From Saururus chinensis (lineage: Eukaryota; Streptophyta; Magnoliopsida; Piperales; Saururaceae), in the NCBI GenBank assembly GCA_035235625.1, contig CP141149.1:1645001-1709000 (forward strand): a stretch of 64,000 bases of DNA, read 5' to 3'. A program made the position numbers and the translations under genes. Positions 13,949 to 58,799 of this stretch are shown piece after piece. Every line of letters begins with the position of its first letter. Within the stretch, counting starts at the first letter, position 1. Under the pieces are notes generated by a model that worked only from the letters and a program-made list of their open reading frames with translations, had not been told where the DNA came from and did not search any database.

Positions 13949-14707
13949 TCCTTCCTATAAAAAAGCCGTGACCAGTTTGACTTTTCAATGGACGAATAAC
14001 AGTTTTGGTTATGAATGAGTATTACATGCTTATGTGGTATACTTTCTATGAAAATTTATATAATTTATAGGGGTATTCTGGGAATTTAGGGGTAAAACTA
14101 ATGGCATCCGAGTCCTTTTGCCATATCCGGATGAAAATGCCCTTCATTATTGGCCTCTATTTGGACGAAAATGCCCTCCATTCATTGGCCTCTTTTTTGT
14201 ACTCGTTTTGATGTTAATTTTGTGAATTCCAAGGGCATATCTGCATGAGATGTAAATATTTGATGTTGATTAATGAGAATGACAAAACTAACCTTGATAC
14301 ATATGTTTTGGTTTGGTATAATGGTGTCGTAATTAGAAAGTTTTTTTTTATAGTTTTGGCATTGATGCCAATATTGGTTGTCAAAAATTAATGGGATATT
14401 TATGGGATTTAATTAATTTGGTAAGTTTGTTTAATTAGTGGCAAATTAATAGATTCCAATTTGGCTTAGGTGGGCCGTTGGGTTTAATTTAAGAAGGGTG
14501 AGCATTTAAGAATGGTGAACATTCATTGCTTTTTTAAATTCCTTTTGTTCATATACCCAGTTGTGTGTGCCTTTTGAACTCTTTCCAGTTTGATCGGAGT
14601 TTTTCATGTGACTATTGAGATTCAGCGAGATGCATTACTCTCATATGGTTTGGCGTTTGGGTGTTTAGGACCAATGGACACTTGTACCTCTCTCTCAGTT
14701 CATCAGA
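13949..14707 (+). repeat. Helitron 5' end region, copy A
   Basis: About 759 bp that is repeated in diverged form at about 20,622-21,386. Shared phrases include TTCCTATAAAAA, CAGTTTGACTTTTCAAT, TTTTGCCATATCCGGATG, AAAATGCCCTCCATTCATTGG and GGGTGTTTAGGAC(C/T)AATGG. Copy A starts precisely at the Helitron boundary. The similarity fades at a CATCA(C/G)A point near 14,707. It includes no clear gene. Confidence 0.75.
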
Positions 14708-14813
14708 TGGGGCAGCAACGAGGCGGACAAGCCGAAGTCGGAGACCTTGAGGTCGCCATGTTCGTCGAGTAGCAGGTTCTCGGGCTTGAGGTTGTGGCCC
14801 TTCTACGAATCAA
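14704..14813 (-). pseudogene. Captured protein-kinase fragment (SnRK3/CIPK-like)
   Basis: On the minus strand this stretch reads [19 protein letters not shown] followed by FGLSASLLP. That is the catalytic loop and activation segment of a Ser/Thr kinase: the usual RDLKPEN is altered to HNLKPEN, and the metal-binding DFG is kept. The [18 protein letters not shown] wording is that of plant CBL-interacting kinases. The arginine and aspartate of the HRD motif are missing, and a stop lies just upstream of the loop. The GC content is higher than in the neighbouring sequence. Only about 33 residues of a protein of roughly 430-470 are present, so it is a gene scrap acquired by the Helitron. It lies immediately after the 5' end region and opposite in strand to the ATR piece. 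Confidence 0.75.
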
Positions 14814-15259
14814 AACATCATTGACCGCTGCCTCCAAACTAATCTACTTCTGCAAAACAGGTAACACCATTTTCTTTTATCCTTTTCTTTTCTTGTTTGA
14901 TTTCGTCTTCTCTTCTTCATCGCATACTTTGCTGAATTTTTTAGCCATGCATTTTGATTAGGGCGATTCCTATGTAAAAAAAGATTTTTTCTGATTTTGC
15001 ATACTGCAAGTATGGCAATCACCCAACTCTTTTTCATCCAATCCACCCCATTCTCTCCAAGTTGGGTGAAAACTGAAAACTTGGATCTCTTGATTTTATG
15101 TTTGCCTCTGGATCTGTTTTCTATTTCGCCTTCTTTGATTGGATCGGTAAATGAAGGTGATCTAAAGTTCTGAGAATTGGTTATTTGGAGTTATTATCTT
15201 CTTATCCACTGCTCATATAGTTTCTGGCCTGACAGAAATTAGTGTGCACGATGTTGTAG
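14814..15259. other. Unassigned sequence between captured fragments
   Basis: A TTTTC-rich stretch with no recognised coding content. The last part probably represents intron sequence brought along with the FTHFS exon, since it ends in a good splice acceptor (GATGTTGTAG, 15,250-15,259). Confidence 0.4.
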
Positions 15260-15358
15260 GTTCTGCTATCTGTGATTGACGAGCTTAAGGAGTCGGGAGA
15301 TGGATACTATATGGTGGTTGGAGGCCTTACTTCCACACCTCTTGGTGAAGGAAAGTCT
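15260..15358 (+). pseudogene. Captured exon of 10-formyltetrahydrofolate synthetase
   Basis: The translation runs [20 protein letters not shown] then [13 protein letters not shown]. This matches the N-terminal nucleotide-binding part of plant FTHFS (formate-tetrahydrofolate ligase, one-carbon metabolism in the cytosol), where the family reads [14 protein letters not shown]. The P-loop GEGKS is intact. The exon starts right after a splice acceptor (AG at 15,258-15,259). After GKS the similarity decays quickly (TCTATAGTGGAAGCTTG), and a stop follows. Only 33 of about 630 residues are present, so it cannot encode an enzyme. It lies directly upstream of the ATR piece on the same strand. Confidence 0.85.
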
Positions 15359-15494
15359 ATAGTGGAAGCTTGATTTGTATGCTGTTTATAGTCCTGGTTG
15401 ATTTGGCATTATTAGATGAGGGGAATAAATATTATTAGATAGGAAGGTCAAATCTGGAAGAAGACCTTGATTTAATTCCTATAATTCGACCTTA

Positions 15495-18400
15495 GAACAT
15501 TTTTTGGCCTTCACTTGCCATTTTTCACTACTTATGTTTTTGCCATTTACAAAGATTATGTAGATTACATGAGAGAATTGCTCCTGTTATCCATAGATGT
15601 TGTGAGACCTGAAAATATTGATATTTCTACTTTGAAGCCAGAAACTTCACTAATGGAGTTTCGCATGCTCTGTATTGTCTTCTGTAATTACCGGAAGGCC
15701 GAGATATCTCAATTTGTTTTTCAGAAACTGCATGCTTGGATGCCTTGGATATGCAAGTAGGTATGTAGGATCCTGTCTGCTGCGTGTTTCTTACCATTAC
15801 AAGTATGGTAAATTTGTTTTTTAACTTTTTTCAACTAGCACAAAACTTTACTGTAGGTTCCATATAAGCTCATTTACATGTTTCTGCTTCTTACTTCTTT
15901 CTGTTCCATATATCATGCTTATCAAGAATTACATTTTTCAGGCAAACGAGAACAGTTCAATTCTATTTGATATATCCATCTACTTGGAGGCAATCTATAA
16001 TGTTGGTATTTTGCAAGGTAAGCAGTTGAAATTTTAATTTCAAATAAAGGAAGTTGTATCAGTTTGCGGACGTAAATAAATGCTCCACATGTATTCTTAT
16101 TTGTTATTCAAATGTTAGATGATGGTAGTACTCAAGGTGCGGGTTATGAAGGCTAATTTTTTTCTTTGTTTCTTGGTTGAGATTCCCATCCTGATGAGGT
16201 TAAATTTCTAAGCAATGATGGTATGCATGGCTTTAATAGCAGAGATACCTTAATTTTTATATTAAAAGTTCCATGGACTCATTCTCTTGTTGGCTATCAG
16301 TCTCATCCTTTGTGGAGAATAAAATGCGTTTCTGTTCAAAATTTCTCCAAGATTAGTTCTAAAATGAGTTCTGAAAGCGACCTTGAAGTTTTTGACTTGG
16401 CTCTTCGTGATGAACATGAAGATGTTAGAGCTGAAGCTATTATTTCTATGCCATTCTTGGTCTTATGTTCTGGCCTGGGACTGTTGGTGCATATAGCCAG
16501 GAGACTAGAGTAAGTTAATTGCATTCATTGGATTATGCTTGCTGATTATTATTGTGTCAATTTCTTTTGCATTTACCTGGATTATAATGCATTGCTGCAG
16601 AACTATTTTTTTGCTTATAAACGGTTGTTGCTTGTAGGCTTCTGGACAGAAGAGCTTCTATTATTGTTAACAAAATTGTACCTTATGCAATTCACTACTT
16701 GTCCTGCCTTTATGGTTCTTCTATGGATAAAGACGAAGGTAGCACTTCTTGCAAATTGTTCTTGATTGATAACCATGAGAGAACTAAACAGACATTGGAT
16801 TTCCTTTTGAGTGGATTTTGGTGTCCAAAATGTGACGAAAGAATTAGACGTGAGCAAGAAAATTTTCCTTCCCTTTCGGGTCTGTTTGATGTCCAATTCA
16901 GGGAAGGCTGTACTAATTTTAGCATTGCTAATCTGCACAATCTTTTCCTTGCACTTATTTTTGATGAATCATCAGAGGAGGTTCAAGTTGCCTGTGTGGA
17001 GAATATGTCACAAGTTCTCATGCACGGCGTGTAGGAGCTGCAGTCCGAATTGAAGTCTCAGTGGATGTGCTGTTTTGAATATTTACTCTTTCACAAGAAA
17101 AGGGTTCTAAGGGAAGCATTTTCCCAACAGATTAGTTGCTTCATGGAAAACCATATTTGGGATTCTTTGTTCATTGATGGTAAAGCGTCCTATAAAATGA
17201 AGGGATACAACCTTCTGCACAAACTAATGCATGCTTTGGATACAACTGAAGATCCACAGATTCTTGAAACTCTTCTGGAATCTATAGCTAATGCTATGAA
17301 TGCTGTTGAGATTCAAGAACAGTTCTTCCTTTTTTCTCTAATTTTATTGGTTGAACAACTTGATTGTTGTCACATGACGATAAGAATGAATGCAGCAAGG
17401 TTAATACATAGATCCTGTCAATTCCATTTAGAAGGTGGAATTGAAAGAGTATTTTTTAAGTTTGTCCACATAGGGATGAGTTGTATGATTATATTTGTGC
17501 GAGGCTTGTGGACCGTCCAGTTTTGATAAGAGAGTTCTCAGAGGCTATTGTTGGAGTTGAAATAGAGGAATTTGTACGGAGAATGGTTCCCATTGTTCTT
17601 CCAAAACTTGTAGTCTTGCAAAAAGATGAAGACAAGGCTTTTATGACCTTAATTGAATTGGCCAAACTGATGAACATGGAATTGATACCTTTGGTTGTTA
17701 ATTGGTTGACCAAAGTGCTTGCTTTTGCTCTTGTTCAAGATGACAGCATAGTGCTATCTTCTGCCTTGGAGTTCTATCATTCTCAAACCGGGTCCAACAA
17801 TAAGGAGACTTTGCTGCTGCTTTACCTACTCTTCTTGACGAGCTTGCGTACTTTCTGAGTGATGGGGATTCTGAAGAAACAAATAAAAGGTGGTCATGTC
17901 TTTTGTAAGTTGTGCAATGCCCTTGCAAATGCATTTTGCAGGGCTATAATAGCCAAAGGGAATTAATACCTGCTGCTTTTTGGCTTTCAATCCAACTATA
18001 TAAAACCTAGAACATATAGATTGAGGAAGACCAATAAGCTTGATAGAATTGCATTTAGAAAATGTGAAATGCTGAGGCCACCGGCAGAAGGCAATGCCTG
18101 CATGATGCTGCGGATCCCACGCCATCAGTGCAAGCGTCTCTGGTTACAAGCAAAGCAGAAAACATGCCTTTATCAGCGTTATACCTTCCCATACTTCATT
18201 GTGTTGTTTTAATAAATTCTGATGTAGTTTTAATCTTGTATATCAAGAATTTAATGGTACTCAGGAGGCTAATACATTTCTCCAGGAAAATTTATTCTTA
18301 CAAAGATTCTGGATTTACATCTTCGGAATTTTATTGTTTATTTAGTTCATTAGTTGAATTTTACTTGAGTGCATATCTATTTTAGCTATATTATTAAAGT

Positions 18401-18655
18401 AAAGGTAGGAACTCATTGGTTGAAAATAATTTTACGAGCATTTCGTATATTTATAATATTTTTTTTGGGTATCTCTGCTCTGGTTCTGCCATTTTTAATG
18501 TTGCTCCATGTGATGATTGTCCTCTTATCATGTCATGTCACTAAACTTTTATGTTTTATTCTATACGCCTTTGCAGGCTAGAAAGAGTTAGAGTTCCGCA
18601 CATGATAAAAGAGGTAGCCCAGATTTTCATTGGCTGTGACGAAATGCGGCTCCGT
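15495..18655 (+). pseudogene. ATR: Captured N-terminal part of the ATR checkpoint kinase gene
   Basis: A multi-exon helical-repeat protein piece. Visible exons are about 15,515-15,757; 15,942-16,017 (AG before, GTAAG after); about 16,180-16,509 (donor GTAAGT); 16,638-17,889 (after CTTGTAG); and 18,577-about 18,650 (after TTTGCAG). Characteristic stretches are FWCPKCDERIRREQENFPSL, MVPIVLPKLVVLQKD, LVVNWLTKVLAFAL, LPTLLDELAYFLSDGDSEE and VPHMIKEVAQIFIGCDEM. I recognise these as the HEAT-repeat region of plant ATR, the PI3K-like DNA-damage kinase of about 2,700 residues. The last junction is in phase (...NK R|LERV...). One in-frame stop lies at 17,032-17,034 and a one-base frame change near 17,470. 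There is no FAT or kinase domain. Introns are retained, so the piece was acquired as genomic DNA and not through RNA. Confidence 0.85.
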
Positions 18656-18783
18656 CCATGTGAATAAACTTATATGGATACATGTGTGGGGAGACAGCCT
18701 AAATACTTGATCCCTGTCATGTTTTACCCATTTTAAACTCTTTCAAAAGATCTCATTTGCTTATAATAGACGTGAAAATTCTA

Positions 18784-19240: not shown

Positions 19241-19369
19241 ACCTTTATTTTCTAATCATTATGCCAACTATGGAATTGCTATTCAAATGAAGAGAGGCCG
19301 AGTGTGTGTAATTGGGTGTGTTAATGTTTGAATGCTTTAACTTAATAATGATCCTGTATCAACATGGAT

Positions 19370-19374
<5 letters not shown>

Positions 19375-19400
<26 letters not shown>

Positions 19401-19402
19401 AC
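19375..19402. repeat. (CT)n(CA)n microsatellite
   Basis: Simple TCTCTC then ACACAC run near 19,375-19,400. Confidence 0.85.
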
Positions 19403-19424
19403 CCACTCACTATTAATCATGATG

Positions 19425-20355
19425 CATGATTAATGTGTCCACAAGAATTTGATTGGTGTGTCCATTATTCATGATTATTGCTTTTTTTTAATGCTAAAGT
19501 TGGGTGTTTGGGGTTGCAGGTTGATGTGAATGGATGTTGGAAGCGTTTGCTACTCATCTCCAGATCTGAGACCCAGCTTCCACGACCATGAAGAACGAGA
19601 CCAGTGCACAGTTATCCTTTATACTTTTGCTTTTTTCTGATATGTTGATTTATTGTGCCATGTTGTATGTGGATTCTTAGAAGATTATGCCAGGAAAGTG
19701 TTGTTCGTTGCTAGATAGATTATGTTAATATGATCAATTTATTTGCATAGAGCTTGGGCTGCAGTTAGGAGAAAATGAAGCTGTGAAATATAAATTCTAT
19801 AGTGAAAAGTACTTGATGATAATGTAGCTAATTGATGGATTGGAGCTTTGGTTTTGTTTCGTTATTATTTTTGATAGCTTGAGTGCCTAGTACGATTAGA
19901 AATGTCCTCCATCAAAATTTTGTGATTCACACTTCTTCTTTTGTCATGAATACTGCCTATTTTTAAATATTGGATCATAAAAATGGTCGTGGTATTACTT
20001 CAATTATTGAAAATTTGGATTAATGTGTCCACAGGAATTTGATTGGTGTGCCCTTCATTCATGATTATTGTTTTTTTATTATCCTAGAGTTGGGTGTTTG
20101 GGGCTCCAGGTTGATGTGAATGGATGGTTGGAACTGTTTGTTAGTCATCCCCAGATCGGAGACATAAATTCTGCTGTCAAAAAGAATGAGACCAGTGTAC
20201 GGTTATCCTTTATACTTCTGTTTTTTCTGTTATGTTGATTCATTGTGCCATGTTGTATGTGGACTATTTGAAGTTTATGCCGGGAAAGTGTTGTTTATTG
20301 CTAGATAAATCATGTCAATATGACAATCTGTTTGATCAATTTATTTGCTCTTCAG
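19425..20355. repeat. Direct repeat pair, about 320 bp, spaced about 590 bp
   Basis: The blocks at about 19,428-19,750 and 20,018-20,350 share ATTAATGTGTCCACA(A/G)GAAT, GGTTGATGTGAATGGATG, GAATGAGACCAGTG-type phrases, GGTTATCCTTTATACTT and AGGAAAGTGTTGTT(C/T). They are diverged and carry small indels. No coding function is recognised; they may derive from a captured transcript end. Confidence 0.75.
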
Positions 20356-20587
20356 AATAGAAGAAAGTTGTACAGTTGACATTATATGTCTATGTTCTTT
20401 ATAGCTAGTGGTGTTTTTTTCTATAATGGGACTGTTGTAAAGGTGGTGAAAATATAAATCGGAATGTGGAGACACAAAGAGGCTCAGCTGCTATTTTGTC
20501 AATTTCCAAGTTTAGGTTACTAGGGATGTCTTCATTTAGAGGTCTTTTGGTTTTCTCTTTTAATGTTAAAATTTTTGGCTATATTAT

Positions 20588-20621
20588 TTTGTGTGTGTGT
20601 GTGTGTATATATATATATACG
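20588..20621. repeat. (TG)n(TA)n microsatellite
   Basis: A TGTGTG run passes into TATATA directly in front of the second copy of the Helitron 5' region. Such dinucleotide runs often sit at Helitron junctions and may have favoured recombination here. Confidence 0.85.
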
Positions 20622-21386
20622 CTTCCTATAAAAAGAGCAGTGGCCAGTTTGACTTTTCAATAGATCAATAACAGTTTTGTTCACGAATGAGTGAGTAATT
20701 ACATGCTTATGTAGTTTACTTTCTATGAAATTTTATGTAATTCATAGGGGTATCCCAGGAATTTAGGGGCAAAATTAATGATGTCTGAGCCCTTTTGCCA
20801 TATCCGGATGAAAATGCCCTGCATTATTGGCCTCTATTTGGATGAAAATGCCCTCCATTCATTGGTCTCTATTTCATACTCGTTTCGATGTTAATTTTAT
20901 GAATTCCAGGGGCATATTTGCGTGAGATGTAAATATTTAATGCTAATTAATGAGAATATAAGCATTTGTAGTGGTTGGACAAAACTATCCTTGATACTTA
21001 TGTTTTCATTTGGTATTTATGGTGCTTGTAATTAGGATTTTTTTTGGGATAGCTTTGGCATTGACACTATTATTGGTTATAAAAAATTAATGGGATATTT
21101 ATGGGTATTGATTAATTTGGTAAGTTCATCTAATCATCCTTGTGGAAAATTAATAGATTCCACTTTTGGCTTAGGTGGGACGTTGGGATTAATTTAAGAA
21201 TGGTGAGCGTTCATTGCCTTTTCAAATTCCTTCTGTTTGTATACCTGTTGTGCGTGCCTTTTGAACTCCTTCCATTTCGATTAGAATTTTTCATATGACT
21301 ACTCAAGATCCAGCAAGATGCATTGCTCTCATGGTTCGGCATTTGGGTGTTTAGGACTAATGGACACATGTACCTCTTTCCCAATT
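20622..21386 (+). repeat. Second copy (B) of the Helitron 5' end region
   Basis: It begins CGCTTCCTATAAAAA and follows copy A (13,949-14,707) for about 760 bp with an estimated 85-90% identity by eye. It ends near TTCATCACA (21,386). The TC start is not conserved, being CG here. It is either the 5' end of an older, nested related Helitron or an internal duplication. The captured CIPK, FTHFS and ATR pieces lie between copies A and B. Confidence 0.7.
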
Positions 21387-22902
21387 CATCACATGTAACT
21401 CTTCTTATTTTTTTGGAAGGTAGGTTGTTGAGTATGAGATCTGTTGTTCTTAATCATGGTAATTTAGATTTGGATTTTGTTCAATCTATTGTTACATAGA
21501 TTTGTTGCCTACCTATGCATGTTTTGTTTAAGGGGTTGCGGATCAGGGCTGAGAAAGGATCATTTTGGTCATTTGGTGTCTAGGGCCGATGCACGCCTCT
21601 CTTCCGTTGTTAGTTCGACAGATGTAGCTCTTCGTTTTTTTGGAAGATGGACTATCGAATATCAGATTTCTTGTTTATGTTGTTTGTGCGATAACAATCC
21701 CTATTGATATATTGAATATGTCTTTTATTTATTGGAATTGAATAGATAGATTATACTAAATGAATTTTCAAGTATGTTTGAAGCTTCTTTATACTAAATA
21801 CCACTTCTGTCATTCATTCTTAATATATTCAGTATGATTATCATTTCTTTAAATTAAATACTTAGATTATACTCAATGAATTTGTGGATTAGAATAAAAT
21901 GAATATTTCCATAATAACTAGGTGTACATTATCAATTTTATATTCACATAGAAATAAAAAAATGTGAATATGGCATAACCGCCAAAAAATTTTGGCGTTG
22001 GGAACGTAATTTTCTGTTTAGCGAAAAGGAATAGTTTGTTAAGAATAGTTTAGTTAGAATCATATATTTTTACAAATAATGCTGAAATATTATTATTGAA
22101 GATGTAAAGTCCATAGCATTGGGACATGGTTATGTATAGTTATTTAGAATGCATGGTTGTGCAATTGATTTACCTTCCTTTCTTGGCTTTCCTTAAGTAA
22201 TGACCTTTGACTATTTTTTAATTTATATTTAATGAGTGAATTCGAAACATTTGTAACATTCTATCTATTAAATACAATAAGCAATTATAGTATATAATTT
22301 TGTGAGAAACACATATGGTATTTATAGTATTTATAGCTTTTTTAAAACGTTAATAATAATGGTAGCATCCTTCAATGCCAATTTAAGTTATTGCCATGCA
22401 CATTGATGGTTCTATTATTTATATACCATTCATTGGTATTTAAATACATATAGTAGTGGGCATTTAGAAATGTTTAATCATTAATAACCCATATGTCTTT
22501 TCATTTTCCCAAGTTGACATTTGAAAGAGGTATAAAGTGCGTATATGCCTAGATGAGATGGACAATCTAATTAGAATTTGTTTAATTTGTCTAGGTGTAG
22601 CCGCCAATCAAGATATATATTATTGGTAAAATTTTTCAATTACATATTAAGATGTGTTTTGATTGCTTATACATGGGATGTTTTTGATCAGTTCAAATTT
22701 TATGTTTCATATGTTCTTCATTTACCCATATTTTATACTCCAGTTATATGGGTCGTTCACTACTTTAATAGTATGTTAGTGTATATGTGTTGTGTTACCA
22801 ACTATGTACTATGGCTTTTAAAGGCTTGATACTTTTATGTAGATGATGGTCCGTACTTTTAGAGCCGCATGAAAGAATACGTCGCGGTCCGTTTCCTTTG
22901 AT
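21387..22902. other. Unassigned AT-rich sequence
   Basis: No recognised gene. There is a short open stretch at 21,477-21,704 with no domain I know. A short palindrome occurs near 21,985-22,000 (GCCAAAAAATTTTGGCG). The last few hundred bases may hold 5' parts of the unknown gene that follows. Confidence 0.4.
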
Positions 22903-23084
22903 TTGAACACACCTGTTAGTATTGTACCGATGTCTACTGCAAGTTATAGTTCTGTTGAAGTTGAGGTTGGATCTGATCTTGAGTCAGATGAACCTACAGA
23001 AATTAGTTCGGATGTTGGGTGTATGATCAGTACTTATGCTTCAACTCAAGACAATTCAGCCAATGCATCTCCTTGCAACACTTC

Positions 23085-26000
23085 TGTTGTGCACATTTCT
23101 AGGGCTCTATTGTGCACGTTCTAAGGCTGTCACTGGAGCCACATGCTAGGGTAATTAGTGCTAATGGACCTTAGGTGCTCGTTAGTGAGCCCATTAGTTA
23201 GCCTATTTAAATGTAAGGGCTATGCCCTAAGTGGAGGGGTGAATGATTAATTCTCTGATTTTCTTTCCTTTCTTCTGTGTTTCTCCCCTTTCTGTTTGAT
23301 GGCCATGCCATCCACTCTTTCCTTTCCCGGTCCCCCTGCGCCGCTCCATGTTGTGGACAACCATCCACAACATTGGTATCGGAGTATTTACGATCCTCGG
23401 CCATGGCTCAAGGTGATCCTGCGATAGTCCGTGAACTCAAGTTCGACAAAATCCTGGCTGCATTGGAAGTCCTAATGACGTATATGGTGAGCACAACAAA
23501 TGGCACAGCGACGGCACACGGCACACACAGGAGCCACTCTACCGGGGCCGAGTCTTCTGCCTGGGTCGTCCCCTTCTGTACTGGGCGGTCCATCACAGCC
23601 TTGCGAACAACACCACCTACTCCACCGTCCACCTCCTCCCCCGTCGGTGCACCCTCCACCGCGGTTGCCCAAAGTTCAGCCCGGCGATGTTCAATTGCCA
23701 CCTTCCTGGCCAAGCGGGCACGGAATCAAAGGGTTTTTGACTGAATTGGAGGTCAATGCCCGAAGCGTCTTGCCGCTGTGGAATCGGCTCCAACTGAAAC
23801 TCCGGTGGGGAGCGAGGTTTGAGGACGAGGGGCGGGTAACATCCTCGGAAAAGTCCGCCTCGTCTACCTCTTGGTGGCCCATCACCCTCCAGTGGCCACC
23901 CATTCAGCCCCTGCCAGTCGCCGGCCCCCTTGTCGCTGTCATCGGAACAACCCGATTAGTTCCCTGTTCCACTGACGAAAGCAAAGATCAGTGGCCAAAT
24001 CTCCAAAGTTGGTGCCTTTCCCGTCGTCGCTCACTCGCCTGACCACCAGCCTCGTCCTCCGCCCGCCACCGCCGCCATGTCCTCCAGCTGAGCCGTCCGA
24101 CTTTCCTTCCGCAGACCAGCCACGATTTTCGGTCTGGGGAATTTTTTCCTTCTACAGCCGGTGGGGAAGATTTTCATTGGGAGATGTACGGGATGTCGGG
24201 GGAAGTTTTTCCTTGCTGGCAATGATTCCGGCCTGGTTTCATGGGATTACTCTGGCAGTCCGCTGCAGATATCTTTAGCTGGAGGCATTGTGCTAATTTC
24301 CATCGGGCTTGCACTGGAGATCCTGATCACACGGGCTTTTCTATTCCCTTCGGATATGATTTCGCTGATACTCCATCGGCAGTGTTTGACGGAACGTCGC
24401 CTCTTCAGGAAATTGCCTTTTGCAGCCACCTCTTATGATATTGAATTTGATCATCGGCAGCTGCGTTCCTATCATGATTCTTATGGTTCAGGGTGGGTAA
24501 AAGAGGCAGAGGACCCGTTTGATGAACTGTCCGGCAGGTTGTTGAATCATGAAGTGGCGTGTTCTGATGCGACGACCTTTGGGTTCATGATTAACAGGTA
24601 CCTCAGAGAAGTTAAATCAAATGATGCACTCCAATATCTGGCCACGATGGTGAATGCCAATGTGGAGACCGGACTGAAGGTCGCCATGGGCTTATATAGA
24701 CACCTGATTGGGACATTGGTGGAGATGGACCTCATTGAGGAGGCAGTGGGTGTTCTCGGGCTGATGAAGGTTGGGAGGATGATACCTGCACCTGCGAGCT
24801 ATGAGAGCTTAGTCGTGGCTCCCTACAAGGCTGACAAGATATTCCTATTGTCACTCTATCTAGATAAGGATCTATTGAGTGCGAAACGATTCCTTTGAAA
24901 GCAGCTTCAGAAGCGCAGGAACTCTGATCCTACTAAGGCACAGAGTAGTGATCTATGCTCGGATTCACGGATGAGGATTACTTGCGACAGTGTAGTCAGT
25001 CAAAATCTTGCAGCGCCCATGACACCAATGGTACATGCAAAGTCTGATGGGAGTGCAGACAGCTTTCTGAGTAGAGATTTGCTGCAGCTGATGTCTTCTT
25101 GGCATGAGGAGGAATACCACATGTATCCATCGTTTTCAAAGTTCTCCTATGCAATGTATATCCTATTCCTTTCAAGACTTTCCCTGCTTTCTTTTGCAGT
25201 ACAGAACCGAGTGTTAGAGAAGAAGGTCAAAATCTATCCGGCAGCAAAAGTGGATGCCTTTCCTTCGCAGTCCGGTAATAATTTTGTGGTTGCATTGATG
25301 AAACAATTAAAGGAGACACCTGCTCGATCTGATGTGAATCCACTTCAGATCGGACCTCCTATTCTATTGGCATTTATGATTAATACAAGAGAATTACCAA
25401 GTCTGCACGATGCTGTTTTAAAGCTGGCAACGGCACAGGCTTCTAATGCTAATTTCCTTCCCTCTGTTGCGGTGATTTTGGGGCCTGATTGGTCCGATGA
25501 AGCTGGGACAGACTTGGGGGAGATAGGGATCACAATACTGGGTACAATGGTGTTTGGAATGCTGAGGGCAAGCTGCGGAAATCCTTGTTTCCTGGCAGTT
25601 CATGAAGAGGAAGGTGCTAAAGGAATTTTATGCACGGATGATGGCCGCCCATACAAGCCAATAATTCAGGATTGTGCAGTGCTTCTACAGCACATTGTGG
25701 CTTGTGACGAGGCAGATTTTGCTGTGGTGTATGGAATTCCCAAGAGCTATGAGGCTTCTGGCTATTCCCTCACAACAAATGTTTATACCGGACTACTCAT
25801 CGGGTAGTGTCACTAGCAAGAATGGCAGCCCTACCCAGGATGTTGTCGGTGCATGCGGAACTGGAGTTGCTGTTCATGCCATCATTTGGACTCGCCTTGT
25901 GATTTCTAGTCTTTGCTTGTGACTTAGCCGCATTCGCTGTTCTGGACTGGTTGATCACAGCAGAGCTGTGGTGGGCCCACGGGTTGGAGTTTACGTCACC

Positions 26001-26408
26001 TCGAGGACGAGGTGATGCGAAAGCGGGGTGGAATGTTGTGCATGTTGTGCACGTTTCTAGGGCTCTGTTGTGCATGTTCTAAGGCTGCCACTGGAGCCAC
26101 ATGCTAGGGTAATTAGTGCTTTAATTAGTATTATAAAATAAGGGTATTTAAGTAATTTAGTTAATTAGGTTAATTAGTGATTTATTTTAATTATGTTAAT
26201 AGGCCTTAGGTGCTTGTTAGTGAGCCTATTAGTTAGCCTATTTAAATGTAAGGGCTACACCCTAAGTAGAGGGGTGAATGATTGATTCTCTGATTTTCTT
26301 CCCTTTCTTCTGTGTTTCTCCCCTTTTTGTCTGATGCTCATGCCATCCACTCTCCCCTTTCCCGATCTCCCTGTGCCGCTCCATGCTTGTGGACAATCGT
26401 CCACAACA
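23085..26408 (+). mobile_element. Non-autonomous LTR retrotransposon (LARD-type), copy 1
   Basis: The 5' LTR is 23,085-23,372 and the 3' LTR 26,034-26,408, both TGTTGTGCA...CCACAACA. The 5' LTR lacks an internal stretch of about 85 bp present in the 3' one. A primer site TTGGTATCGGAG (Met tRNA type) follows the 5' LTR at 23,373, and a purine tract (AAGCGGGGTGGAA) precedes the 3' LTR. The target duplication is a perfect ACTTC (23,080-23,084 and 26,409-26,413). No gag-pol domains are seen. The interior instead has GC-rich sequence, a block shared with the element at 32.8 kb, and host-like open frames, including a PPR-like helical stretch (about 24,440-24,900). It inserted in an exon of the unknown gene. 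LTR divergence suggests a moderate age. Confidence 0.85.
24440..25805 (+). other. Host-like open frames (PPR-like) inside the LTR element
   Basis: Two long frames lie here on the plus strand. The first contains helical pairs such as DATTFGFMINRYLREVKSND and LYRHLIGTLVEMDLIEEAVG that look like pentatricopeptide repeats, RNA-binding helical repeats of organelle proteins. The second, from about 25,000, has no family I can name. They are likely cargo taken from host genes by the retroelement lineage. The PPR call is by eye only. Confidence 0.4.
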
Positions 26409-27416
26409 ACTTCAATCCTAGTGGGCAAAGTATCGGTCGAGGAAAATGATAATGTTGTTGTTATTAGCGATTCAAAGGATGATCTATGTGAGACAAATGG
26501 AAACACTTACGTCTCGGCTGGCAAAGCACATGGTTGTCTCAATCTTGGTAATCCATGTGCAGGTGGTTAATGCTATGTTAGTTTTGTTTCATATATTGCA
26601 TAGAAATATTTAATTGCTATTTTTTTTATATAAATATTTTTTAAATGTCTTCGACCTCCTTGGCTTAGTGGTTGCAGAAAGTTATGGTTGCAGTGGTCGT
26701 GCATGTCATGTGATTATGACTAATCCAATTCGGGTTGTGTTCCATTCAATGGATTTGTTCAAGGCTAATCCACAATGCCCACATTTTGAACCGTTAATAT
26801 TATATGATGTGAAAGAGCGTGAAGACAAGGGTATAATGCTCATGCTTGATTATATAAATCTTGTCCATAGCTTCCCTGTGACCACCTACATGGGAGTTGA
26901 TTCTATCTCAAACGTTAACAGTCGAGTTGGAGGAAATTTGATTTGGAACATGTAAAGAACCGTGTGCAAGAGTTGCATGATAGTCAATTGCATGGTGTTG
27001 ATAGTGGCTATGAAACAACATTACTAGCTGTTCAGATTGCTGGACTCCAAAGGAAGAAGGTGGAATTAGCTCGAGAGCTTAATGACATAGATGCCAAAAT
27101 GCTTGCATTGGCCCAAAAGGAAGAACTCCAAAGTGAGAATGCACGATTTGATGAGCAAGAATCTTATTTATGTAATAGGCTTAAAATGTTTGAGTCTGGG
27201 AATTCGTCAACGTCATAGGTTAGTTCAATGTTCCTGTTTTTCATATGCATGATACAGATAAGTGTTTATCATAAGTCTCGTATTTTACGGCTTCTTGGCT
27301 ACTTTCAAGATGTCTTGTTCATGTGGCTCCATAGTCATGTTTTTGTAAGCAAGTATTTACTACTTGTTGCTATCAATCACATGTTTGTTAGTTTATCAAA
27401 CCGGCCATTTAAATTA

Positions 27417-28238: not shown

Positions 28239-28239
28239 T

Positions 28240-28995: not shown

Positions 28996-29005
28996 ATGTT
29001 CATCT

Positions 29006-43324: not shown

Positions 43325-43653
43325 TGTTGTGCCCAGCGTGGGCACAATCAGTACACAGGAGTTCTACGCAGAGAAAGGGAAAGAAGTAGGGAGAGGGGAG
43401 AAAATAACTGGAATTCAATTAGCATCCTAACCAAGGAGGGAGACGACCCTTTATGGGGAGTTGCGCCCTCCCACATTGGGAATTGTGCCACTAGTGGGCC
43501 CGGCTCGCCCGTGGTCCACTAGTGTACCCATTACAGTTCATAACAGAATACAAATAACAGTCAACTACTAACATAAGGGAAACTAGCCTAAGGAACGTAA
43601 ATACAGTACTGAAATAAAGGTAAGTACTGAACCAAGTGCACACGTGCACAACA
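43325..43653 (-). repeat. 5' LTR of the Reina-like element
   Basis: 329 bp, TG...CA ends, next to the Met-tRNA-type primer site on its internal side. Confidence 0.9.
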
Positions 43654-43658
43654 TTACT

Positions 43659-45814: not shown

Positions 45815-45821
45815 GTTATTA

Positions 45822-47000
45822 TGGATTGAATTATGTTGTTTTTGGAACAAGCTCAATCTGGAAATTACTTTCCCACCCTGTCTTTGTTGGAAACACTTAC
45901 TCTTTAGATTATGTTGAAAGCAGCAGGGTTTGATTTTGAGCATTGTAAGATGGTCTGTAAAGGTTGGAGGCGTGCTATGAGCACTTCCAAATTTATTGTT
46001 GAGTGGTGTTCCACAAACCATCAAACATATGGTTATTTTCTTCAATGGTTAGCACATATGCAGGTTGCTCAAAGTTACCTTCCATTTCATCCATCACTTG
46101 CACTAGATGCTGATCTAGAATTCTTGTTTCCTGAAGAGATGATTTATTTGGCAACCTCTCTTGGTGGGCTGGTTCTATGTAAAAATGATGCTCAACGCAC
46201 AGATAGATACTATCTGAGTCTCCAACCATTATTCGGCCAATGGTTGGAGACTGGGTTCTTATTCCATGTCCTAGATTGAGGTATATGTCACTGGCATATG
46301 CTATTCTTGAAAATTGTATGAATGGCCGCCATTATAAGATATTTTGATTATGTTTGTCTGACAAGCATGACAATTACCTTATCGAAGTATTTAGTTCTGA
46401 GACTTGGAAATGGAAGCATATTGGTGAATCAAATATAGGGAATTTCTCTTCAATTGGCTCAGAACCACCCATATGTGTTGATAAGTATGTGCACTTACTT
46501 ATAGATTCTACAATGTTTTTTGTTTTTTATATGGACACTTGTGCTTGTGGTTATATTAAACTGCCTACCATTATCAAAAAACATGATGCAGATCAAATGG
46601 TTTTAGCAAGCTGTGAGGGGCGTCTTGATCTTGTCTCCCTTATTGGAGGGATCATGAATGTTTATACATTGGATTGCCAGGTAAAAGCAGTTTGGTCCCA
46701 AGTTTTGAGTTTTCCTATATTAGATTTAGTTCCCAAGAATGTTGAAGTAATTAGTGTTTTATACCACTCATTTGATGTATTTGTCATGCTTACAAAAAAG
46801 AGGTTTTCTTTTGCGATGTAATTAATAGAAGCATTACAACTGTCAAACTGGCGTATTCTTTTCGTGAACCTGGAATTATGCTTTTCATGAGTGATCATGG
46901 CATTGATCCAATTCCTCATAGCGGTGAAGAACCAACAAGCTAGGCAAATGGATTGTTGAAAATCGAGTTCTAATTCGTCTCCTAGATGATGAGTAGATTT
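45822..47000 (+). pseudogene. F-box-family gene 2, degenerate
   Basis: A relative of the gene at 29,907. The first open part (45,911-46,276) carries the end of an F-box-like segment (FDFEHCKMVCKGWRRAMSTS) and then YGYFLQWLAHMQ and LATSLGGLVLCKND. A second open part (46,354-46,818) has LIEVFSSETWKWKHIGESN, IKLPTIIKKHDADQMVLASC and GRLDLVSLIGGIMNVYTLD, the same block order as in gene 1. The N-terminal LPxDL part of the F-box is not recognisable, and a stop lies shortly after the first ATG (45,822). The two open parts are separated by stops, and the 3' part decays. I judge it a pseudogene of an SCF substrate-receptor-type protein. It is on the same strand as, and about 16 kb from, gene 1. Confidence 0.6.
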
Positions 47001-50527: not shown

Positions 50528-53500
50528 ATGGTATCAGATAAATCGACATCACATAGAGAAGCAAAAAGTGCTAGAAAACACGCATGGTATGCCCAACTCT
50601 CGGTTGCAGAAAAAGATCGAATATGCAAGAAGAGGACTTTAAATAGGGCTGCCGCAAAGGATCGGTTGAATCTAGAAAATTAAAATTCATCGAGTTCACT
50701 CATGGATTCCAATGCAATCGGTGCTTTAACAAACCATGATGATCAACTTATATATATAAATAACAGTAACTTGACTATATATTTGATAGCTTCCTAATTT
50801 TTTTTGCAATTGATTTTGGGAATAATATTTTTTAGATCTTCCTCATTGGTAGACCAAGTGGATGATCAAATTGTTGCTACTCATGATCGTCTCACTTCCA
50901 ATGAGGAGTCGATTGTCATTAGACCTAATCTATTGGATAAAAAATCATTTGAATTGCCCTCAATGTCAAAGGCTGTAAGAAAGAAGGCTAAGGTTTATCA
51001 TATAGACGTAACCGTGGACTACATATATTGTGGAGCAAAGAAATTTAGGCGGAAACAAAGGCTTTTCGCTGTCAAAATGGGGGCATTATGATTCGTCTTA
51101 ATGGAATTCCACCGGAGTTGGAGGAACTCTATCTAGGAACTTCAGATGAGTGTAGGGCTTTCCGTGATTGTGTCAGAGGTTATAATAGCCTCTTTTCTTT
51201 CACATCGATTTATGTTGAGATCGATGAGAGTGTCAATAATATGAGCGTTGGAACATATACCTATCAAATTCATGGCCAAATTTATCATTCCCTCAACTCT
51301 CTAGAACCAACGGATCTAGGTCCCCGCTTCTTGCAGCTGTATTTTTATGATATAGATCATGAGGTAGAAAATTGCATGCACTTAATGTCAAACTTGTCCC
51401 CAATATTGGTACAAAGGAATATTAATATTCTTGATATGAATCCTTATGCACAGTTTCTGCGGCAGCTTAGATATATGGGGGACGTTTGTGAACTAAGAAT
51501 TGGTATTCAAAAGAGTTGTAGTCATGATCAACGTGTCTACAATGCACCATCTTCATCTCAAGTGGCTGCTATTTGGATCAAAGGAGATGAGGCAACAGGT
51601 GAACGAGAACGACATATTATTGTTCATGGAAAACATGGTGAATCATATAAAGTTCAACCTTATTATGGGTGCTATGACCCTTTGCAATACCCATTGTTGT
51701 TTCCAAGTGGTGAGACTGGTTGGCATGCTGGGATTAAATGTCGTTGTTTGGCAAATTCAGCGTATCTAAATAGCATTGAGCAATTTGAGCAAGAATTACA
51801 GGTTGAAGACCAACTTCAAAGACGATGCACTGATGTGACTTGTAGAGAATATTATGCCTATTTATTCCAAATGAGATCAAACACGTCATGGAGTATTATC
51901 AATGGTGGGCGTTTATTTCAACAATATATAGTTGACATGTATGTGAAAATTGAGACAACAAGATTGAACTTTATACAACATAATCAATGCGCTTTAAGGG
52001 CAGAATTTTACCAAGGTGTAGTAGATAGTGTCACTGCTGGAGAGATAGAAGGAAGAAGAATAGGTAAACAAGTTGTGTTACTTGCGTCATTCATTGGTGG
52101 ACCATGTGATATGAAACGAAGACATTTGGATGCAATGGCTCTTGTTTAAGCATATGGTAAACTGGATTTGTTTATTACAATGACAAGCAACCCAGAATGG
52201 CTTGAGATTACCAGTCATTTGAAACCTAGGAAAGTTGCATCTAATAGACCTGATATAGTCTCCCAAGTTTTTAAGGCCAAGATAGATGATTTGAAGGGCC
52301 TTATTATAAAATTAGGTTTCATGGGTAGAGTTATTGGCTACGTGGATGTTATAGAGTTCCAAAAACAAGGGTTTCCACATATGCACTTATTGGTTATAAT
52401 GGTAAAAGAAGACAAGATAATGGGCGTTAATATAAATGACAAGTTTGTTTGTGCAGAAATTCCAAAGGTTGAAGAAGATGCATTATTATAAAGCCATGCC
52501 ATGAAACATATGATGCATGGACCTTGTGGGATTTCTAGAATGAACTCACCATGTATGACACAAGGAGTTTGCCTGTTTAGATATCCAAGAAGATTTACAT
52601 ATGTCACTATAGAAGGTGATGATTCATACCCAGTATATAGGAGACGAAACAATGGTTCGTCTGTATATGTGAGTGGTCACACATTGGATAATCGATAGGT
52701 TGTTCCTTAAAATCCTTTTTTGTTGAAGCGTTATAATTGTCACATGAATGTTGAGGTATGTTCAAGTATTAAGGCAGTAAAGAAGGGTCATGATCGTATC
52801 TCTATGCAGTTGATGAATAACTTACATGTTGATGATGTTGATGAAATTAAGAGTTATGAAAACGCACAGTGGGTATCTCCACCTGAAGCAGCTTCGCAAA
52901 TTTTTGCATTCAGCCTTAGTGATAATCGTTCAGCTGTTATCAATTTGCAACTTCACTTGCCAAATAAGCATACAGTCACTTTTTATGATGGACAAAATTT
53001 AGCTAATTTTCTTGAGAATGAGGTGATTTGCCAGACAATGTTGACAACTTACTTTGATAGAAAAAAGGTTGATCCACATGCTCGTATGTTACTCTACCGA
53101 GAATTTCCAACTTTGTATGTGTATAGTTGTCAAAGTCGTTCATGGGATCCTCAAAAATCTGGTTTTCAATTGGTAGAATAAATGCTGCAAATCCAGTTGA
53201 AGGAGAGAGATATTATTTAAGGCTTTTGTTGAATCATGTTCGTGGAGCAGAATCATTTGATCATTTTCTATGTGATAACGGCATGCAATGTAAGACATTT
53301 CGTGAGGCAGCACATATAATTATATTTTTGGTTGATGACAATGATATATTACTATGTTTGGAAGAGGCATCAACATTCTCAATGTCAGCTTCTTTAAGAA
53401 CATTGTTCGCAACAATTTTAGTATTATGTGAACCCGTTGATGTGCGAAATTATGGGATACAATGTTTTTGGATATGTCTGATGACTGTCTTCTCGCGAAT

Positions 53501-55083
53501 GGAGTTTCAAACACTATACATGTTGCTTATGTTCTTAAAGAAATTGGCGAGTGTATTGCAAATTTAGGTTGTTCTTTAGAAGATTTTGATTTTCCAAGGA
53601 TTGAAATTGATTCTTTAAGATATAGCCGAGCAAGGGAGGCCATCAAGGAAGGCTTAGTTCCAATATCCTATCAAGATTTGGAAGCAGTCAATTATTTAAA
53701 TGAAGATCAATGAAGAGCATATGACATAATTATTGCACGTGGAAGCTAGGTCCACACGTGTTTTCTTCATTGACGGTCCTAGTGGGACGGGTATGACTCT
53801 CTTGTATAGAGTCATTCTTGCAACAATTAGGCAATGAGGAATGATCGCACTTGCAACAACAGCCTCTGGGGTTGCTGCATCAATGTTGCATGGAGGACGT
53901 ATTGCACATTCCAGATTTAAGATACCGATTGAGATTGACATTAATTGCTCATGCAATATTTCAAAACAGAGTGGTATGTTACAATTATTTACATAAGCAG
54001 CTTTGATTATATGGGATGAAGCACCAATGACAAAAAGGTATGGATTTGACGCATTGGATCGCACACTTCTAGATATACTAGATTGTTCAAAATCTTTTGG
54101 TGGAAAAGTGGTTGTGTTTGGTGGAGATTTCTGACAAGTATTGCCTGTGGTTCCCAAAGGTACAAGAGAAGAGATAGTTGATGCATGTTTGGTGTGCTTA
54201 AAGATTTGGCAAACTATTGAGATATTGCCTCTCACTAAAAATATGCAAGCAATGAATAATCCAGATTTTTGTTCGTATTTACTTCAGATTGGTGATGGAG
54301 ATGAAACATGTATTCAAGACGATTACATTAGAATGCCATCCGATATGTTGAGTGAAGCCACATATTTTGAAAATGGAACTTGCAAACTGATTGTGGAAAT
54401 ATTCTCATCTTTAGAAGCACGAGTTTTGGAATCAAGTTACTTGGGAGAGAGGTGAATATTGACAACAAAGAATGAATATGTTGATCAAATAAATTCAAGA
54501 ATCATTTCGATGTGCAGTGGCAATGCAGTAACATACAACAGTTATGACATGACAATTGATGATAAAAATAATTTTTATCCCATGAGTTTCTTAACACACT
54601 TACTCCAAATGGCCTGCCTCCACATAACTTGGTACTCAAGCAAAATTGCCCAATTATGTTATTGTGAAACCTTGATACAAGGAATGGTTTGCATAATGGC
54701 ACAAGGTTGATTTGTATCAAGTTTGATCGTAATGTTACACATGCTCAAATTGCAACTGGGGAATATAAGGGAAGAAATGCTTTCTTGCTAAGGATTCCAC
54801 TCATGCCAATAGATAATGAAAAGTGCCCGGTTAGATTTAAATGTTAACAATTTCCGATAAGGCTTGCATTTGCAATGATTATTAATAAAGCCCAAGGTCA
54901 GACCATTGAAAATGTAGGGTTGTACTTACCAGAACCTATTTTTTTGCATGACCAATTATATGTTGCTTTGTCAAGAGGTACTTCTAAGTCGAAAATTTTT
55001 TTTTGATCAAGCATTCATTAGACAAGACTATACCACGTAGAGTGACAAAAAATGTTGTATTTAAAGAAATATTTACCAAATAA
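50528..55083 (+). pseudogene. Helitron RepHel transposase (Rep/helicase), defective
   Basis: This is the rolling-circle transposase of plant Helitrons, normally about 1,300-1,500 residues, nicking and unwinding DNA in the nucleus. The ATG at 50,528 gives a typical basic N-terminus (SARKHAWYAQLSVAEKDRIC). A probable intron lies before 50,840. A CxxC-like region (IYCGAKKF) and a frame change near 51,055 come next. The Helitron-like N domain runs to about 52,490, with the metal-binding HUH motif FPHMHLL (His codons 52,378 and 52,384). The catalytic tyrosine block, normally between SIKAVK and KGHD, is absent here: the text reads SSIKAVKKGHD (about 52,755-52,790). The PIF1-type helicase has Walker A GPSGTGMT (lysine replaced by methionine at 53,793-53,795), Walker B IIWDEAPM, and the C-terminal motifs INKAQGQTI and YVALSRG. 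It ends VVFKEIFTK at 55,083. In-frame stops (52,147; 52,489; 52,696; 52,708 and others) confirm it is dead. Confidence 0.92.
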
Positions 55084-56018: not shown

Positions 56019-56461
56019 TATGGGGAGATATTGTAGAAAATGATGTACCCATTCTTTAGAAATGTCATGGCGATTACCTAATTATTTATTTGATAGCTGT
56101 GCGAGTCCAAGAACTTCAAGGTATCCTTATTTTGTTGACAATCTAAGGTATTGCGTGAACAACTCTTATGGGGAGATATTGTAGAAAATAATGTACCCAT
56201 TCTTTAGAAATGTCATGGCGATTACCCAATTATTTATTTAACAGCTGTGCGAGTCCAAGAACTTCAAGGTATCCTTATTTTGTTGACAATCTAAGGTATT
56301 GCGTGAACAACTCTTATGGGGAGATATTGTAGAAAATAATGTACCCATTCTTGAGAAATGTCATGGCGATTACCCAATTATTTATTTAACAATGCGAGTC
56401 CAAGAACTTCAAGGTATCCTTATTTTGTTGACAATCTAAGGTATTGCGTGAACAACTCTTA
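56019..56461. repeat. 148-bp exon triplication in the RPA1-like gene
   Basis: TATGGGGAGATATTGTAG starts at 56,019, 56,167 and 56,315, a period of 148 bp. Each copy holds the LWGDIVEN-coding piece and the following exon and intron border (GCGAGTCCAAGAACTTCAAG). Copies differ at only a few positions; the third has a short deletion. Confidence 0.95.
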
Positions 56462-56499
56462 TTATGTATAATATTATTTTACTATTATATTTGTAGAGC

Positions 56500-58192
56500 G
56501 ATTAACGTTATCATCAACAATTGAGACTAAAACAACCATCAACCCAATGTTTGAAACGGCTTTAGAACTTAAAACTGGGTAAGTTTTACCTAAATATTTC
56601 CATCGTTAAAAAACACCAAATGCTTGCTTTAAACTAAACTGCTCAATTTAAAGGTAACCTATATGGTATATTGTATTATTTAATAATATACATAATTCAA
56701 ATTTATACATATAAGTATAAAAGTTAATATATGCATTTGTTACATTATGAAGGTATCTATTGATCGTGGATTCAAAACAATTATAGATGATTTCATTTAG
56801 AAATCATTTATGTTTGTCCTCAAAACAGATCGGAAAATTATTGCAGACAAGGTCATTAGGTCGACCACATGTGTTTCAATTACAGGAACCGAAAAGGGTA
56901 CTTTTTGTTTTCCCAAATGTTTGTAACCCACATTTGTTTATCAATCTATGATAAGGTTATTCTTAAGTTTAATGTTTCTATATTTTTTATTTCTAGGTAC
57001 AATTGAACATGAATGTTAATTTTAACGTTATCATCAACAATTGAGACTAAAATAACCATCAACCCAACGTTTGAAATGGCTCTAGAACTTAAAACTGGGT
57101 AAGTTTTACCTAAATATTTCCATCGTTAAAAGAAACCAAATGTTTTCTTTAAACTAAACTACTCAATTTATTTGTTCTTTCCTGTAAAAAAAAACATGTT
57201 AGGTACTTCAAGAATATGTCAGAAGTTTCGAATATGGTGGACACATAGGTGTCACATCGAAACAGTTTGAAAAGACTTGTAAAACAAATTATGGATATCA
57301 TGAAAATTAAATAACCACTTCAGGTTTTATTACTTGCTCTTTCAATTACGTATATATAATTATCATTTTTTTGTTATATATGTATATATATATATATATA
57401 CATACATATTTATATAGACAAAGACAGAGGGAAAGATATTTGTAATACTTAACTTTACTTTCATGCCCTTCTTTAGCCTGAATTTGTTGTTGTTGATGCG
57501 TGGGTTTTAAAGATAAGTTTGGATCAAGATATTTGGTGCATTGTATGCTCAAAATACAACGAAAAAGTTAACAATCATCATAATATTGATGCGTGTGATA
57601 AATGTCATGTTACTCCGATAGTGAAAGTCCACAAGTATATTTCATATTTATCTTCATCTATTTAAATTCATTTCACAATGGTGATAACTATTTTGTTATT
57701 ATTATTCATATATAGGTTTTATTTTCGAGCAAATATAGCAGACAATACTGGTAACATGTGAATAATTGTTTTCGATGCACAAGCAGAAAAAATGTTAAAT
57801 AACTCAGTCGATACAATGCATAATTTAAAGGTAACCAATATAGTATATTATATTATTTAATAATATACATAATTCATATTTATACATATAAGTATAAAAG
57901 TTAATATATGCATTTGTTACATTATGAAGGTATCTAATGATCGTGGATTGAAAACAATTATAGATGATATCATTTGGAAATCGTTTATGTTTGTCCTCAA
58001 AATAGATCAGAAAATTATTGCAGACGAGGTCATTAGGTCAACCACATGTGTTTCAGTTATAGGAACCGAAAATGGTACTTTTTGTTTTCCCAAATGTTTG
58101 TAACCCACATTTGTTTACCAATCAATGATAAGGTCATTCTTAATTTTAATGTTTGTATTTTTTTATTTCTAGGTACAATTGAACATGAAGAT
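56500..58192. repeat. Two interleaved direct duplications in the RPA1-like gene
   Basis: About 150 bp at 56,503-56,652 recur at 57,025-57,172 (ATCATCAACAATTGAGACTA, CTTAAAACTGGGTAAGTTTT). About 360 bp at 56,652-57,012 recur at 57,829-58,190 (GATCGTGGATT, CATTAGGTC(G/A)ACCACATGTG, CCCAAATGTTTGTAACCCAC). The second pair duplicates the penultimate-exon region, so parts of the gene exist twice in shuffled order. Confidence 0.9.
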
Positions 58193-58768
58193 GACAATGT
58201 TTCCCCAGCAAAATAAATTGTACCTTCTTTTTCTTTACTATATAATTTTTGTTTATTTTCTTACTTTAATAAATTATTGGCTTGTCTTATATATACCTTC
58301 TGACTAATTTGGTCAAATTAGATTGTAAGACTTGGGATTGTCATGATTTATGATTGATCTATGCACTTTGTAGCTTCATTTTTAAGTAACCTTATTAGGC
58401 ACAATAACAAATGCTATATATTTGTGTTATTTAAAAAACTATATAGATTTTATCGCAGTAATATCTTTCTTGTTTGTCTGACATTTGAGAATGGTTACTC
58501 TTTTATACAAGGAAAAAAAACAATTACATCTTTACTTATGCGATGGCTTCCATTTTAAATGCACTAAAAATGATCACCATAAAATGACTACTCTCATTTT
58601 TTTTGTTAAACCCTATCTATGCATTCAGTTAAGGGACACTACGTTGTTCAATGTTGTTATAAATCACAAAATGTAACAAAAAACATGTCAAAGTAATGAG
58701 CTATCGATTTTAGTCAAATAATAGTTATAATCACTTACATTTAAGACATATTTTACCGTAAAAGTTTT

Positions 58769-58799
58769 CACGTGCTTTTTGCACGTGCATTATTCCTAG
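58769..58799 (+). other. Helitron 3' terminus: hairpin plus CTAG
   Basis: Stem CACGTGC (58,769-58,775), loop TTTTT, stem GCACGTG (58,781-58,787), then CATTATTC and CTAG (58,796-58,799), followed by host T at 58,800. This fits the CTRR terminus and subterminal hairpin that stop rolling-circle transfer. The 8-nt spacing is slightly shorter than the common 10-12 nt. Confidence 0.92.

Follow-up and report, generated by a model that had tools for sequence, protein, structure and literature searches.

Giant Helitrons can be suspected of being nests of separate insertions, and whether so large a stretch can have moved as one unit is the question raised by a locus of Saururus chinensis (assembly GCA_035235625.1, contig CP141149.1, here C10, positions 1645001-1709000 of the plus strand), where copies within one genome allow the ends, an internal junction, the capture of a gene piece and subsequent insertions to be put in order. 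The 64,000 nt of this interval are referred to as the window, and positions without a contig name are window positions; copies and unoccupied sites were searched for in the genome (516 Mb in 11 contigs). Our analysis indicates that 13,949-58,799 is very probably a single insertion of a canonical plant Helitron (TC...CTAG, inserted between A and T), probably of the RPA-bearing type.

At the left terminus (13,949) the flank ...GCTCATAA, which ends in CATAA, meets TCCTTCCTATAAAAA, giving an A/TC boundary (the slash marks the edge of the element). At the right terminus the hairpin CACGTGC-TTTTT-GCACGTG (58,769-58,787; 7-bp stem, TTTTT loop) stops 8 nt before CTAG (58,796-58,799), and the base 3' of the CTAG is a T (flank TTATG). 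The 5' TC and the 3' hairpin roughly 10 nt ahead of CTRR that mark canonical Helitron ends are both present. On the plus strand of the window the combination of hairpin and CTRR-T was found at three places, each with a stem of 7 or 8; in 40 block shuffles, combinations with stems of at least 7 averaged 0.6 per strand. By itself the motif is non-significant in the window, and the recurrence of the terminal 31-mer in the genome decides (18 occurrences at up to 3 mismatches, none in the reversed control). A second candidate 3' end at 26,421 (8-bp stem, CTAG) was dismissed, as its hairpin lies inside the 3' long terminal repeat (LTR) of the first nested element.

The first 200 bp of the element gave at least 45 genome matches, 23 of which begin at base 1 (40 of 147 candidates scored). 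A/TC was present in all 16 family 5' ends with a match from base 1 and a flank that was read, a tally that excludes two 5' ends of copy C5a (69-77%) and inner ends beginning after base 1, and CTAG/T was present in all 14 recognised family 3' ends. In copies C5b and C8b the 3' terminus was not recognised in the stretches examined. The arms of the hairpin covary in some copies, as at C9:15733756, where CATGTGC/GCACATG still pairs. The initial annotation had proposed both termini from the window, and these boundaries, together with family copies sharing the same ends, confirm them. Beside the 3' end a small deletion was noted at 58752-58754, where in three other copies 94-291 bp separate the subterminal repeat from the final 48 bp.

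Fusion of 300 bp from either flank yields a sequence that aligns gap-free beside the junction with four repeat copies in the window (13,458-13,848, 59,023-59,365, 61,212-60,824 on the minus strand and 8,471-8,710). When 93 and 95 nt of the flanks were joined and the 188-nt fusion was searched in the genome (40 of 3,904 candidates scored), 43 of the 45 matches listed spanned the junction. The fused flanks are the ordinary form of a 317-bp repeat, and the insertion lies between A and T with no target duplication. The earlier statement that the flanks join into one unit of this repeat, with no base gained or lost, agrees with the alignments in the window and in the genome. Copies of the repeat lie at 13366-13948, 58800-59365, 60788-61327 (minus strand) and 8238-8710; inverted copies surround a different 1.4-kb stretch (59,366-60,787), and the stretch 8,238-8,670 is imperfectly palindromic. 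The host repeat may itself belong to an element of the foldback or long-inverted-repeat kind that has tandem units.

The search for copies with the same ends, which the initial annotation had called for, uncovered a family in which five other copies are complete at both ends (13.4 to 43.9 kb). Of 41 listed 3' places, 13 could be paired with a listed 5' end on the same strand no more than 90 kb upstream, and the unpaired 3' ends may reflect broken copies or an incomplete listing of ends. For the copy of 43,930 bp (C9a) the fused flanks matched three unoccupied paralogous sites, each exactly 140 bp long for 70 plus 70 bp of flank, which argues that a stretch now about 44 kb long with family ends entered as one A/T insertion without duplication; its length at entry would depend on the nested insertions in it. 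Intact boundaries at such a size had been described as rare, and they are not unique in this genome since this copy has them too. A composite copy of 56,599 bp (C9:15733756-15790354) also has good ends; its ends and junction were read and its interior was followed through search matches only. The right flank of this copy (C9:15733681-15733758, minus strand) coincides with the margin of a different repeat family, as many of its listed matches begin no more than a few bases from the CTAG boundary.

The internal organization of the window element is not that of a simple Helitron. The 5' 760 bp are repeated at 20,622-21,395 with 81% identity and homology from the terminus on, so the second 5'-like end that had been mentioned at 20,622 is real. 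Copies C8a, C9b, C1a and the 5' part of C9a, here termed A-type, share 13,949-15,359 and 19,266 to about 20,000-20,210 with the window element; beyond these they carry stretches that are absent from it or partial in it, followed by the RepHel region. Copies C5b and C10b, termed B-type, begin at the 20,622-type end and are colinear with 20,622-58,799, with deletions and without the LTR elements nested in the window copy. Searched with 20,340-20,720, which spans the junction of the two types, the genome gave continuous matches at C9:15068822-15069261 and C9:15786607-15787058, and at C5:26525266-26524741 a match that a TA run divides in two (40 of 321 candidates scored). At all four junction loci, the window included, the inner end lacks TC and the TA run leads directly to CTTCC or GTTCC (CGCTTCC in the window copy), and the outer 5' ends of the three other loci have their own distinct flanks, each with A/TC. 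As a junction common to four loci in different flanks, it points to a composite lineage that landed several times and not to a local accident. These comparisons show the element to be a composite of an A-type 5' module (13,949-20,621) and a B-type element (20,622-58,799), with multiple termini inside one unit that moved together. The earlier reading as a single Helitron stands for the ends and the empty target form and is amended to a composite of two Helitrons. The outcome named as speaking against that reading, other copies with 5' ends of the 20,622 type only, was borne out in part: C5b and C10b begin in this way, the A-type copies have the 13,949-type start, and the four junction loci hold both in tandem.

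The colinearity of 20,622-58,799 with B elements that have their own TC start, and the several units of the 317-bp repeat on both sides of the element, would also fit two events, namely insertion of a B-type Helitron (20,622-58,799) downstream of an older, 3'-truncated A-type element, with the in-phase flanks a coincidence of the tandem repeat. This we regard as very unlikely: fusion in phase at one base of 317 would arise by chance about once in 300 cases, TC is missing from the inner end, and the A/B junction is also found at three other loci with other flanks. The copy near C9:15.79 Mb is a candidate second complete unit with the outer 5' end, the junction and the 3' end of the window composite. 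That two Helitrons were wrongly joined in the assembly is scarcely credible; the element does contain a perfect 411-bp tandem duplication that could be a local assembly error, but both the A/B junction and the colinear arrangement are seen again elsewhere and the ends fuse exactly.

How the composite arose is a separate matter. An A element that had lost its 3' end could have read through the intervening DNA to the next 3' end, with no nested B terminator involved. There is no hairpin with CTRR-T between 13,949 and 20,622, and for Helraiser a published passage demonstrates read-through to a downstream terminator (PMC4778049). On the other side, 20,340-20,592 recurs at C4:26278810, where an A-type 5' end is 2.4 kb away, so that what precedes the junction resembles the inside of an A element and not host DNA. 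We consider this route a real possibility, somewhat short of an even chance. Under the nested origin that we propose, the likely source would be an A-type element with a B-type element, oriented the same way, within it or immediately downstream. Rolling-circle movement would start at the outer A-type 5' end, pass the inner 5' end without TC and terminate at the 3' hairpin met first, which belongs to the B element; two Helitrons would thereby become one unit. The window copy may have been moved by its own RepHel before that gene decayed or by the RepHel of a relative.

Within the A-type part the element carries a contiguous piece of host genomic DNA, whose match at the donor locus on C11 is a single piece; 3.1 kb replaces about 96 bp of the element. 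The sole UME domain match in the genome (C11:7640487-7640789, open frame of 1,140 aa) lies 10 bp beyond the donor piece. ATR kinases bear this domain, and the captured gene is accordingly a putative ATR, an assignment resting on that one match beside the donor piece. Solved structures gave no useful match for this identity, and Pfam scans of the captured region returned no ATR domain. Several exon-like open frames with other sequence between them were found in the piece, which seems to include introns. Eight further loci match the left border (query to 157), and in all of them the right border follows close by with no ATR piece; the right border starts from query position 3266, 3267 or 3292, with a gap of 95-97 bp in six of the eight and of 88 and 110 bp in the others. 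The left junction of the capture is direct, with one A common to element and donor, and the right junction has about 14 nt of filler. These borders suggest that the piece is an internal replacement like that of break repair and not a transduction past the 3' end; it would have entered later, inside the element, by repair with filler. A sibling locus, C9:15063999-15067723, carries the piece as well (90-95%; divergence K 0.038 over 2,164 aligned sites), and a single capture before the two copies parted is the simplest reading. Between the siblings 11.5 synonymous and 30.5 other changes were counted in four segments, two of them overlapping, which is near neutral, with one segment at 0.11. Several captured gene pieces had been claimed for the element, and one, the ATR piece, was recovered. 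At about 14,800-14,900 on the minus strand, after the shared 5' module, a stretch resembles by eye part of a protein kinase catalytic loop, a putative likeness.

Several observations weigh against the view that the whole element moved as one unit into an intact repeat. The genome search with the fused flanks, as proposed initially, did find the unoccupied form of the repeat, but the exact pre-insertion locus or an empty allele was not among the matches listed, the best of which reached 85% identity to the unit that was hit. For the 56,599-bp copy the fused flanks matched no unoccupied site among the 40 places listed, and its two flanks resemble different repeats. The ATR sibling could be traced to about C9:15.073 Mb only, its 3' end being absent among the matches listed, so that the full ATR-bearing unit is seen at one place only.

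Three LTR elements are nested in the Helitron, and the size of about 33 kb predicted after their removal was borne out by the computed value of 33,232 bp. Element 1 is missing at 11 loci where both of its flanks adjoin, the ATR sibling included. Dating of the LTR elements relative to transposition by divergence was tried, and the LTR pairs (K 0.083-0.121) seemed older than the sibling split (0.038). This was dismissed in view of 60 transitions to 12 transversions in the LTR pairs compared with 51 to 29 in the sibling, the transversion rates being equal within error; divergence therefore decides no order for elements 2 and 3, and element 1 alone is ordered by its absence from the sibling. Elements 1 and 2 are mutually related (71-78% in parts), and element 1 has near full-length relatives at C8:12279418-12282768. 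In element 1 a PPR match below the cut-off was noted in 24,161-24,898. Both are possibly non-autonomous LTR elements with captured sequence.

The initial annotation had assigned a RepHel gene and an RPA1-like gene to the element. Rep and helicase domains were indeed recovered (Helitron_like_N, PIF1 and Pif1_2B in Pfam), with an H-M-H motif near 52,380, and a Rep of the HUH type is followed by a PIF1-type helicase with stops in between. The gene itself is a pseudogene, with 4 stops in the 441-residue main Rep match and 4 in the main helicase match. The catalytic residues of RepHel include the tyrosines of Rep and the Walker A lysine; in the window copy a 21-bp stretch with the tyrosines is gone at about 52,782, and the lysine is lost. 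With these losses the copy cannot move by its own means today; a catalytic role of such residues is described for Helraiser (PMC4778049). The tyrosine stretch is kept in five of the seven other copies with Rep matches, the exceptions being C1a and C5a, and dN/dS in the RepHel copy comparisons scatters from 0.29 to 1.3. Nearly all of the named Rep relatives listed are from flowering plants, the top one from Camellia (47% identical over 99%), with at most 52% identity among the 120 listed. Of the RPA1-like gene a weak C-terminal match was recovered, its 21.6 bits lying under the Pfam cut-off of 28.5.

Both F-box genes that had been predicted were found again (29,907-30,866 and 46,228-46,967), and F-box-type genes are a recurrent cargo of the family: the 43.9-kb copy holds four F-box-type regions. 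When six F-box-type proteins were scanned, one scored above the Pfam F-box cut-off, two had an F-box and one a propeller below it, and two gave nothing. A query of B-type DNA returned 91 rows, 25 of which match F-box gene 1 (the window element's own included). For sixteen of these 25 a listed family end on the same strand is no more than 45 kb away, compared with about 0.4% for a random stranded position; as the query was B-type DNA, part of this proximity is expected. The other nine are not near any listed family end, the listing of ends being incomplete. Pairwise dN/dS of the main F-box gene between copies was 0.24-0.39, in contrast to the near-neutral change of the captured ATR piece. It is possible, though rather doubtful, that F-box and DUF724 genes are standing accessory genes kept under purifying selection during spread, perhaps to the benefit of the transposon, such as by acting as ubiquitin-ligase adaptors directed against silencing or repair factors of the host. 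A published table of Helitron captures includes F-box sequences (PMC2575219).

Coordinates of the features of the window element, its flanks and related loci
Feature	Position	Strand	Remarks
Left flank, 1.8 units of high-copy 317-bp repeat, ends ...CATAA	13366..13948	+	repeat comparison, flank fusion
Whole Helitron	13949..58799	+	44,851 bp; both ends, fused flanks, genome copies
A-type 5' terminal module	13949..14709	+	starts TC; other copies in the genome begin at the same point
A-type subterminal repeats, partly tandem in other copies	14083..15359	+	copy comparison
Putative captured host ATR piece, contiguous genomic DNA	15549..18642	+	92% to C11:7640800-7643903 (-)
Filler, ~14 nt, at right edge of capture	18643..18658		letter-by-letter reading
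A-type internal segment, ~317-bp direct duplication (19428-19745 / 20018-20334)	19266..20334	+	unrelated to flank repeat
A/B junction at TG/TA microsatellite	20340..20720	+	also at three other loci
Inner (B-type) 5' terminal module	20622..21395	+	terminal TC absent; 81% to 13951-14709
DUF724-type gene, split by LTR element 1	22873..27218	+	not split by element 1 in C5b; E 1.5e-19 in C5b
Nested LTR element 1	23085..26403		5-bp duplication ACTTC; absent from ATR sibling and ten other loci
411-bp perfect tandem duplication	27412..28234	+	0 differences in 411 sites; single in C5b
F-box gene 1	29907..30866	+	one internal stop in part read; Pfam F-box match below cut-off
Nested LTR element 2	32768..35716		imperfect duplication GTTAA/GTTTT; absent from C5b
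Nested LTR element 3	38314..43653	-	matches to reverse transcriptase and RNase H; TTACT duplicated (5 bp); missing in C10b
F-box-type gene 2, C-terminal propeller part	46228..46967	+	with stops
RepHel pseudogene	50807..54841	+	Rep 51,850-52,395; PIF1 helicase 53,739-54,308; 2B 54,584-54,724; many stops
RPA1 C-terminal domain, weak match	57708..57833	+	Rep_fac-A_C E 0.0002, 21.6 bits, cut-off 28.5
Conserved 3' terminal 48 bp with hairpin and CTAG	58752..58799	+	genome copies
Right flank, 317-bp repeat continuing in phase	58800..59365	+	repeat comparison, flank fusion
Copy C8a	C8:25291341-25307501		16,161 bp, both ends read
Copy C9a	C9:11927356-11971285		43,930 bp, both ends read
Copy C9b	C9:9458653-9472060		13,408 bp, both ends read
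Copy C10b	C10:3540256-3564505		24,250 bp, both ends read
Copy C1a	C1:27644028-27662005		17,978 bp, both ends read
Unoccupied sites of C9a	C9:12264309-12264448; C9:12250763-12250902 (96%); C9:12099072-12099211 (94%)		overall 94-96%

Giant size and multiple termini are already known for plant Helitrons. The maize helB elements ZmhelB1 and ZmhelB2 (Dong et al. 2011, PMC3288121) are alike in the 5' TC, the 3' palindrome with CTAG followed by T, the order of Rep and DNA helicase with a downstream RPA1-like part, and stepwise capture of gene fragments; they measure 128 to 20,874 bp, whereas the Saururus family spans 13 to 45 kb, and in the window copy RepHel is broken and the RPA match weak. In the same report maize Helitrons with multiple termini were proposed to stem from nested ones, and according to the section concerned none of the helB elements had multiple termini (PMC3288121). 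Those with multiple termini resemble the Saururus element as composites of a Helitron within a Helitron with a degenerate inner terminus, but they have extra 3' ends with damaged CTAG (PMC3288121), whereas the Saururus element has an extra 5' end without TC. The largest maize Helitrons reach 39 kb and carry as many as nine gene fragments (Du et al. 2009, cited in PMC6431247); likened by description, they are similar in gross size and host-gene cargo, and differ in that in Saururus the unoccupied form, earlier states and the donor of the gene piece can all be seen in one genome. Helraiser and Helibat share TC/CTAG, the hairpin terminator and a two-tyrosine HUH transposase, but there capture was shown to proceed via 3' read-through (PMC4778049), whereas the Saururus ATR piece is internal. 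For a wheat family, extrachromosomal circles have been sequenced with DNA methylation lowered and under heat (PMC13286980). The interest of the locus lies in the readability of its history and in the F-box cargo. Two matters become testable: how much DNA is carried per rolling-circle event (for the window copy about 33 kb if elements 2 and 3 are later too, at most about 41.5 kb if element 1 only), and how gene pieces are acquired internally, as the ATR donor, the filler and the pre-capture state are all available.

Further local duplications were observed within the element. The 411-bp tandem duplication is possibly very recent or an assembly error. A 238-bp sequence is present twice in inverted orientation, 90% alike (37782-38019 and 48068-48305), and encloses LTR element 3 together with 4.4 kb of B-type DNA. 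In the RPA region (56017-56462, 56645-57013 and 57822-58189) a 148-bp unit occurs three times and a 369-bp unit twice, the latter at 94%.

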